This document shows positions 1-7,136 of a DNA stretch of 64,000 nt, piece by piece; positions within the stretch are counted from its first letter, which is position 1, and each line of letters starts with the position of its first letter. This stretch comes from Cellulomonas timonensis. GTDB lineage: Bacteria > Actinomycetota > Actinomycetes > Actinomycetales > Cellulomonadaceae. The notes beneath the pieces are model-generated. The model was not told the DNA's origin and made no database searches. It saw only the letters and a program-made list of their open reading frames with translations. Both the position numbers and the translations under genes were made by a program. Location of the stretch: positions 186,001-250,000 of the forward strand of contig NZ_FCOT01000008.1 in assembly GCF_900046455.1 (NCBI RefSeq), in the 5' to 3' direction.

Positions 1-1
1 G

Positions 2-283
2 CTGGCGCGCGGCACGCTGGGGGCCGTGTTCCGGCTGTTCCGCGAGCGCACAGGCGCTGACGAGCACGCCGCCGAGGGCTTCGTCGCGCAGGGCATGCTC
101 ATCAACGTGCTGCTGATGACCGGCGTCCCCGACCACCTGGGCGAGGACGCCGCCGTCGACGCGCTCGCCGCCTGCGTGCTCGACTCCGCGCCCCGCGACA
201 CCGCGACCCCCCCCTTCGTCCACTGCCCCCCGCCCCCCCCCACCTCCCCCCGCGCAACACCGTCGGCAGCGCCAGATGTGTAA
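2..283 (+). CDS. TetR/AcrR-like regulator, C-terminal fragment (5' partial, 3' end artefactual)
   Basis: The frame is open from the window edge, starting at base 2. Its first ~66 residues (including GMLINVLLMTGVPDHLGED) resemble the all-helical ligand/dimerisation domain that ends TetR/AcrR regulators; the DNA-binding half would lie left of the window. Beyond about base 205 the frame reads mostly Pro/Thr/Ala from C-rich sequence, and its stop (281-283) lies inside a sequencing-adapter copy, so the true C-terminus is not present. A TetR gene is not the usual left neighbour of truB in actinobacteria (infB/rbfA are), which is another hint that the two sides may not be contiguous. The family call rests on resemblance only. 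Confidence 0.5.
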   Translation: MARGTLGAVFRLFRERTGADEHAAEGFVAQGMLINVLLMTGVPDHLGEDAAVDALAACVLDSAPRDTATPPFVHCPPPPPTSPRATPSAAPDV

Positions 284-331
284 AAGACCCCCCCCCCCCC
301 CCCCCCCCCCCGCCCCCCCCCCCGGCCCCCG
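206..331. other. Probable assembly artefact: C homopolymers around an adapter copy
   Basis: From about base 206 the sequence becomes long C runs. Bases 288-311 are 24 consecutive C, followed by one G and 11 more C. An Illumina Nextera adapter copy sits at 261-287. Runs of C/G next to read-through adapter are typical of two-colour sequencing reads that continue past the insert end. Nothing here should be read as biology: not the stop of the left gene, the upstream part of truB, nor a homopolymer switch. Confidence 0.85.
261..287 (+). other. Nextera read-1 transposase adapter sequence
   Basis: Bases 261-271 read CGTCGGCAGCG, 273-282 read CAGATGTGTA and 284-287 read AAGA. These are consecutive pieces of the standard Nextera i5-side adapter, with single mismatches only at 272 and 283, so 25 of 27 positions agree. 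The 273-287 part is the Tn5 mosaic end. The match is from memory of the published oligo and is far too long for chance. Confidence 0.93.
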
Positions 332-349
332 GCGCCCGACGGCCTCGTC

Positions 350-1237
350 GTGGTCGACAAGCCCCAGGGCTGGACCAGCCACGACGTGGTGGCGCGCATG
401 CGCCGGATCGCGGGCACCCGCAAGGTCGGCCACGCCGGCACGCTCGACCCGATGGCCACCGGCGTCCTGGTGCTCGGCGTCGGGAAGGCGACGCGGCTGC
501 TCACCTACGTGGTCGGCGCCGACAAGGAGTACACGGCGACGATCCGGCTCGGCGTGCGGACCACCACGGACGACGCCGAGGGCGAGCTCGTCACGGCTGT
601 CGACGCCGGCGCCGTGGCGCAGGAGGCGGTCCTGGCGGGCATCGCCGCCCTCACCGGGGAGATCCAGCAGGTGCCGAGCTCGGTCAGCGCGATCAAGGTC
701 GACGGCCAGCGGGCCTACGCCCGGGTGCGGGCGGGGGAGCAGGTCGAGCTCGCCGCGCGCCCGGTCACCATCAGCCGCTTCTCGCTCGACGCGATCCGCG
801 CCGTCCCCGCGACGGCCGACGCTCCCGCCGCGCTGGACCTGGACGTGACGGTGGTGTGCTCGTCGGGGACGTACATCCGGGCGCTGGCCCGCGACCTGGG
901 GGAGTCCCTCGGCGTGGGCGGGCACCTCACGGCGCTGCGCCGCACGCGCGTGGGCGGCTACCCGATCGACGGCGCGCGCACGCTCGACGAGCTCGAGGAG
1001 TGGCCCGCGGACGTCCCGCTGGACGTGCTGCCCCTCGCCGACGCCGCCCGGGCGATCCTCCCGGCGCGCGAGCTGACTGCCGCGGAGACCACGGCGTTGT
1101 CGTACGGCAAGCGGATCGAGGTCGCGCCCTCGGACCGGCAGCCGGTGGCGGGGATCTCCCCGGACGGCGAGCTCGTCGCGCTGTTGGAGGCGCGGGGCGC
1201 GCACGCCTGGCCGGTGTTGGTGTTCGCGCCGGCCTGA
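350..1237 (+). CDS. truB: tRNA pseudouridine(55) synthase TruB (N-terminus lost)
   Basis: Converts U55 of the tRNA T-loop to pseudouridine. The signature GHAGTLDPMATGVLVLG is present; its Asp (residue 33 from this GTG) is the catalytic residue of the family. A PUA-like RNA-binding region follows near the C-terminus. Family members begin a little upstream with a PDGLVVVDKPQGWTSHD-type segment. Here APDGLV is visible in frame from base 332, but everything left of that is artefact. GTG at 350 is therefore only the first start codon left, and roughly 5-15 residues are missing. ribF, rpsO and pnp follow in the usual order, interrupted by an antisense NUDIX gene. Confidence 0.93.
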   Translation: MVDKPQGWTSHDVVARMRRIAGTRKVGHAGTLDPMATGVLVLGVGKATRLLTYVVGADKEYTATIRLGVRTTTDDAEGELVTAVDAGAVAQEAVLAGIAALTGEIQQVPSSVSAIKVDGQRAYARVRAGEQVELAARPVTISRFSLDAIRAVPATADAPAALDLDVTVVCSSGTYIRALARDLGESLGVGGHLTALRRTRVGGYPIDGARTLDELEEWPADVPLDVLPLADAARAILPARELTAAETTALSYGKRIEVAPSDRQPVAGISPDGELVALLEARGAHAWPVLVFAPA

Positions 1238-5807: not shown

Positions 5808-7136
5808 GTGCCTCTGGACCTCCCGCTCGTCGGCCCGGGTGAGCCGGGCAGCGAGTTGACCGCCGGGCAGGACAGCGGCGCACATGTGCGTCGTTCCGTT
5901 CTGCCCGGCGGGGTCCGCGTGCTCACCGAGCACATGCCGGGCCTGCGCTCGGCGACGGTGGGCGCCTGGGTCGGGGTGGGCTCGCGCGACGAGCGCGACG
6001 GCCACCACGGCTCGACGCACTTCCTCGAGCACCTGCTCTTCAAGGGCACGACGCGGCGCACCGCGATGGACATCGCCGAGGCCTTCGACGAGGTCGGCGG
6101 CGAGGCCAACGCGGCCACCGGCAAGGAGCACACCTGCTACTACGCGCGGGTGCTCGACTCCGACCTGCCGATGGCCGTGGACGTCATCGCGGACATGGTG
6201 ACCTCCGCACGCCTGGACACCGGCGAGCTCGAGACCGAGCGCGGGGTCATCCTCGAAGAGCTCGCGATGAACGACGACGACCCGAGCGACGTGGTGCACG
6301 AGCTGTTCGCCACTGCCGTGCTCGGGTCCCACCCACTGGGCCGCCCGATCGGCGGCACACCCGACACGATCCGCGCGGTGCCGCGGACGGCCGTCTGGGA
6401 GCACTACCAGGAGCACTACCGCTCCTCCACCCTCGTGGTAACCGCAGCCGGCGGCGTCGACCACGACGCGCTGTGCGCGCAGGTCGCCAAGGCGCTGGCC
6501 GACGGCGGCTGGGACCTCACGGCTCCCCGGCCGGTGGGCCGACGCGACGTCGACTCGCCGACTGACGGCGTGCCCGCCGTGGGCGCCGAGACGACAGTGC
6601 ACCGGGCCACCGAGCAGGCGAACGTCATCATTGGCGGCACCGGCCTGACCGCCACCGACCCGCGCCGCTTCACGCTCTCCGTGTTGAACGCGGTGCTCGG
6701 CGGCGGCATGTCGTCACGGCTCTTCCAGGAGATCCGGGAGAAGCGCGGGCTGGCCTACTCGACGTACTCGTTCGCCTCCGGCCACGCCGACACCGGGATC
6801 TTCGGCCTCTACGCCGGATGCGCCCCGGCGAAGGTGGACCAGGTCGTGGAGCTGCTGGTCTCCGAGTGGGAGCACCTCGCCGACAGCGGGATCACCCAGG
6901 CGGAGCTGGCGCGCTCGGTGGGGCAGCTCTCGGGCAGCCTCGTGCTCGGCATGGAGGACACGGGCTCGCGCATGAGCCGGCTCGGCAAGTCCGAGTTGGT
7001 GCACGGCGAGCTGCTGTCTCTCGACGAGACACTCGAGCGCATCCGCGCGGTGACGGCCGCTGACGTGCAGGAGCTCGCCGCGGAGTTGGCCGCGCGGCCG
7101 CGCTCGATGGTGCGGATCGGCCCGTTCCGCTCCTGA
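5808..7136 (+). CDS. M16 family zinc metallopeptidase (pitrilysin/processing-peptidase type)
   Basis: A 442-residue single-module M16 peptidase. The inverted zinc motif HFLEH (H71, E74, H75) is intact, and the distal Glu ligand lies in ETERGVILEELAMNDDD around residue 150. The second, inactive half carries the family GGGMSSRLFQEIREKRGLAY segment. No signal peptide is visible, so it should be cytoplasmic. It starts with GTG one base after the pnp stop, as in many actinobacteria, and is likely coupled to pnp. The substrate is unknown. Confidence 0.93.
   Translation: MPLDLPLVGPGEPGSELTAGQDSGAHVRRSVLPGGVRVLTEHMPGLRSATVGAWVGVGSRDERDGHHGSTHFLEHLLFKGTTRRTAMDIAEAFDEVGGEANAATGKEHTCYYARVLDSDLPMAVDVIADMVTSARLDTGELETERGVILEELAMNDDDPSDVVHELFATAVLGSHPLGRPIGGTPDTIRAVPRTAVWEHYQEHYRSSTLVVTAAGGVDHDALCAQVAKALADGGWDLTAPRPVGRRDVDSPTDGVPAVGAETTVHRATEQANVIIGGTGLTATDPRRFTLSVLNAVLGGGMSSRLFQEIREKRGLAYSTYSFASGHADTGIFGLYAGCAPAKVDQVVELLVSEWEHLADSGITQAELARSVGQLSGSLVLGMEDTGSRMSRLGKSELVHGELLSLDETLERIRAVTAADVQELAAELAARPRSMVRIGPFRS

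Follow-up and report, generated by a model that had tools for sequence, protein, structure and literature searches.

Nextera kits use a Tn5 transposase that recognises the mosaic end. When Nextera reads run through into adapter, the insert is succeeded, in the direction of reading, by the mosaic end, the read-1 tail, the index and P5. The same succession is found upstream of truB in Cellulomonas timonensis, within the 64-kb stretch of DNA analysed here (the window). In contrast to usual Nextera contamination, the adapters of this assembly are mostly degraded and lie within contigs: 42 of the 43 adapter rows have over 9 kb to the nearest contig end, and the exception comes within 54 bases of where the small contig C1 ends. 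The surrounding chromosome is comparable with the rbfA-MFS-TetR-truB order of Cellulomonas and relatives, the genes, their order and their strands agreeing to either side of the adapter. However, adapter and failed base calls take the place of the TetR stop and the truB start here, whereas in the locus L038 of a relative this stop and start share a GTGA overlap (read by eye). Adapter, index and P5-like tail succeed one another as expected and in the proper orientation, the index recurs elsewhere, and the flanks are co-linear with relatives. With a probability of about 97%, the element is a sequencing and assembly artefact, in which a contig end consisting of adapter read-through was probably joined to its correct neighbour TetR. 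It is no real biological feature and has some value as a data-quality note.

Layout of the adapter site upstream of truB

A preliminary description of the window reported an embedded adapter flanked by C runs of up to 24 bases, and both observations are reproduced. The Nextera read-1 oligo is identical to window positions 261–287 at 25 of 27 positions, while the next best site in the 64-kb window scores 17/27 on each strand. With the i5 construct searched against the whole genome, BLAST gives the site an E value of 5.7e-6. The C runs are found at 233–241 (9 bases), 288–311 (24 bases) and 313–323 (11 bases), and no other run of at least 9 of any base is present in the window. Read on the minus strand and leaving truB, poly-G is followed by the adapter (down to 260), the index (252–259) and a G-rich tail (222–251). 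The features are as follows.

1–204, plus strand: genuine chromosomal sequence coding for the C-terminal part of a TetR-family regulator (blastn to C. cellasea ET82, L094, 90.5%; PF00440 in the full ORF, L017:9651-10280)
205–221, no strand: unassigned junk or low-quality stretch, left edge approximate (no L094 alignment across 205–300)
222–251, minus strand: P5 flow-cell oligo from read-through, letters mostly turned to G (P5 comparison and shuffles)
252–259, minus strand: 8-base i5 index TGTTGCGC (6/8 against TCTTACGC at other sites)
260–292, minus strand: degraded Nextera i5 (read-1) adapter with its Tn5 mosaic end, source of the TAA closing the TetR ORF (oligo match, BLAST); the right edge 292 is a hand count from the oligo length, 288–292 being lost within the C run
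293–322, plus strand: probable insert end, unreadable at 293–310 and degraded at 311–322, at the position of truB codons 3–12 in L038 (register counted by hand, assuming that the C run kept its length)
323–349, plus strand: truB codons 13–21 (L038 numbering), in frame and legible, the true start codon being lost upstream (L038 comparison)
350–1237, plus strand: truB (tRNA pseudouridine synthase B), N-terminally short version of the ORF list (PF01509, PF09142, PF16198)

Both differences between the focal index and the index of the other sites are changes to G. All six non-G letters of the tail fit P5 with one extra G, against 3 of 5 without it, and 10 of 20000 shuffled P5 sequences equal this fit under the same freedom. 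The dependence of the P5 agreement on one inserted G counts against the artefact account. Among the substitutions at the site, 11 of 12 are to G on the read strand, which is C on the plus strand.

Gene order and gene ends at the junction

Comparison by blastn with C. cellasea ET82 (L094) gives a 3.9-kb block (90.5%) that ends at window position 204 and a 1.2-kb block (90.4%) that starts at about 301, an approximate edge because 301 is still inside the C run. Both blocks have the same strand and are separated by 32 bases in ET82 and by 96 here. In the present assembly, rbfA is found at C8:183583-183891, in an ORF ending about 2.2 kb before the adapter. A gene named by eye as infB is upstream of rbfA, and an MFS transporter on the minus strand and TetR are situated between rbfA and truB. 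Of 80 truB loci, 22 have the order rbfA-MFS-TetR-truB, 13 have rbfA directly before truB, and 45 make up the rest; 14 of the 80 show no rbfA within the DNA compared. Thus the order proposed in the preliminary description as a check, rbfA then truB, is seen directly in the 13 loci, but 22 carry MFS and TetR in between. The longer TetR protein is matched in 23 of the 80 loci, and its C-terminal 70 residues alone in 3 of 24 relatives' truB loci.

The preliminary description further suggested that the adapter might falsely join two unrelated contigs, and that the local gene order would then be unsafe to use. Adapter and C runs are indeed placed exactly at the join, and the nearest relative has no adapter sequence there. 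Such a chimeric contig is nevertheless very improbable, as ET82 carries the flanks side by side and equally oriented, rbfA is just upstream, and the complete four-gene order is kept in the relatives counted above. Because of this co-linearity and these 22 loci, we consider that the TetR and truB sides belong together. Judged from sequence comparison, the gene order at this site can be trusted, the gene ends cannot.

A real Tn5-type insertion, or an engineered construct in the living genome, would also bring a mosaic end with it, the end being the one that the Tn5 transposase of the kits recognises. But here a library index and a P5-like tail follow the mosaic end, and i5 and i7 constructs are both present, in dozens of places. 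No transposon body is found between the aligned flanks at the focal site; the 96 bases are mostly adapter, index and P5, and there is therefore too little room for a transposon. We regard an insertion as having a negligible chance of being the right explanation.

Under the artefact reading, 96 bases of adapter and failed calls stand in place of a short real stretch. Relatives are free of the element, with an ordinary GTGA junction in L038 and the 32 bases between the blocks in L094. The effect on the gene ends agrees with the preliminary description, which placed the stop of the left gene inside the adapter and left truB without a natural start. The TetR ORF (2–283 in the window) terminates at TAA 281–283, within the adapter. 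The truB frame is open back to this same TAA, and no start-type codon follows until GTG 350, which falls in the conserved VVDKP region. In L038, truB starts 21 codons upstream of the equivalent of GTG 350 (read by eye), and this start is absent here. Counted by hand against L038, the window codons from 323 are in register with truB codon 13 onward, 311–322 resembles degraded codons 9–12, and codons 1–8 fall within the C run or the adapter. The last TetR codons with the stop, and the truB start with roughly the first 8–12 codons, are thus missing. The TetR C-terminus and the truB N-terminus as assembled are false, and the local gene order is usable.

Adapters in the rest of the assembly

The assembly (G000) has 4,057,828 bases in 13 contigs. 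The Tn5 mosaic end (20 bases, at most 3 mismatches) gives 31 matches in the genome and 0 with a reversed-pattern control. None has fewer than 2 mismatches, and the focal site, with too many mismatches, is not among the 31. Natural low-complexity, GC-rich DNA that resembles an adapter by chance might be imagined in a window of 73% GC, but this count against its control, the 25 matching positions where the next best place has 17, and the only runs of 9 or more in 64 kb leave it next to no likelihood.

In BLAST with the full constructs, 31 i5 rows (E ≤ 0.0204, focal site included) and 12 i7 rows (E ≤ 7.9e-4) are found. Besides the focal site, the assembly therefore holds at least 42 adapter rows (30 i5 and 12 i7), e.g. 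at C11:29024, C12:390347, C13:201290, C13:990718 and C11:534582; these lists are incomplete, C10:37916 being among the mosaic-end matches and absent from the i5 rows. The i5 index TCTTACGC is exact in 6 of the 31 i5 rows, all eight letters being visible in 27 of the 31, and the i7 index AGGCAGAA is exact in 6 of the 12 i7 rows, one of them a repeat reading of its neighbour. Both index sequences were added to the query constructs after being seen in raw sites, which slightly biases the BLAST and index counts towards them. Because the rows share one index pair, which we take to be Nextera XT S517 and N703, one sequencing library is indicated as the source.

At raw sites elsewhere, adapter, index and P5 follow each other in cleaner letters than at the focal site. 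For example, 61 bases of the i5 construct are matched at 95% at C11:29024, and two i5 rows reach 98% over 45 and 40 bases. At C11:534582-534628, 47 of 47 bases of the i7 construct are present, undegraded. The surrounding stretch C11:534427-534651 (L086) contains three i7 adapter matches within 225 bases, this exact one being undegraded adapter inside a contig.

Over the 43 rows, 2227 letters are aligned and 312 of them substituted, with C in 153 cases, G in 72, T in 59 and A in 28. The row C11:534631 was re-aligned to its neighbour C11:534582 (separate places in BLAST), so that one adapter, without substitutions, is counted twice. This error spectrum suggests a general failure of read tails. 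A two-colour 'dark G' cause is weakened and not established, because 11 of 12 substitutions are to G at the focal site but only 72 of 312 genome-wide, with 153 to C.

At 3 of the 43 rows, the sequence flanking the adapter on one side is repeated directly after it (41/41, 28/28, and 98 columns at 77%), so that both sides belong to one locus at these rows. Weaker flank repeats at C9:138810, C12:215280 and the focal site were not counted as overlap; at the focal site the self-overlap scores 18.0 against a shuffle maximum of 16.5, and is a weak similarity of 44 columns (77%) beside the adapter in G-rich stretches. Also not counted were the repeats at C13:232632 (42 columns, 86%) and at C13:380743/380861 (94% over 160 bases), the latter looking natural.

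In comparisons with other genomes, C11:29024 is spanned by one unbroken alignment row each time, 5.6 kb long (88%) with the same-genus genome G006 and 5.3 kb long (81%) with G005. C8:292227 (L018, about 6167–6318) is co-linear with the single-contig genome G005, and its flanks are on different contigs in G006. The gap between the flanking matches at C8:292227 is about 700 bases in G005 versus about 150 here, and real sequence therefore seems to be missing. The region of two further adapter sites (L026) is largely not conserved in G005 and G006. A false join is shown at none of the three sites compared with relatives (focal, C11:29024 and C8:292227). The sequence at dozens of other places in the assembly is suspect.

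In L074 (C13:380743-380938), i5 and i7 adapters are found between the two 160-base stretches that are 94% alike. These repeats are presumably natural lipoyl domains, and the linker of this gene may be false.

Proposed origin and occurrence in other genomes

We propose that a Nextera fragment ended within the first truB codons. A read running leftwards from truB would have left the insert at its end and continued through i5 adapter, index and P5 oligo, with failed calls recorded as G in the read and hence as C on the plus strand. Being degraded, this tail may have escaped adapter trimming, and the read would have formed a contig end at a GC-rich spot that was probably poorly covered. The contig end would then have been joined to its true neighbour TetR by gap closing or scaffolding. 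Tails mostly too degraded for trimming would account for the minimum of 2 mismatches among the mosaic-end matches. However, the exact 47-base i7 piece and the i5 rows at 98% are also in the assembly, and escape from trimming therefore needs more than base-call failure.

The mosaic end is absent from all 6 congeners searched. With at most 3 mismatches it is found in 5 of the 99 genomes searched as relatives, and the 20-base adapter end (at most 2 mismatches) in 20 of the 394 genomes sampled from the class, both counts including the present genome; the reversed control gives 0 among the matches listed. In several other positive genomes, many of the matches listed start no further than 130 bases into a contig, and interior copies may therefore be less usual among these genomes. 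Mostly degraded adapters that evade trimming and screening inside the contigs of species-representative genomes, keeping gene order intact and silently corrupting gene ends, through missing starts and spurious stops, at dozens of sites in each affected genome, could be commoner than is appreciated; we advance this tentatively, at a little under even odds.

The completeness (99.98%) and contamination (0.47%) scores of the present assembly gave no sign of the adapters, while a mismatch-tolerant scan with a reversed-pattern control detects them quickly. G052, a genome of the same family, has 87 mosaic-end matches, 44 forward and 43 reverse. Unlike in the present assembly, the 40 matches listed for G052 are all exact and 20 of them are at contig bases 19–38 (e.g. 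G052:C24:19-38), which are contig-end adapters.
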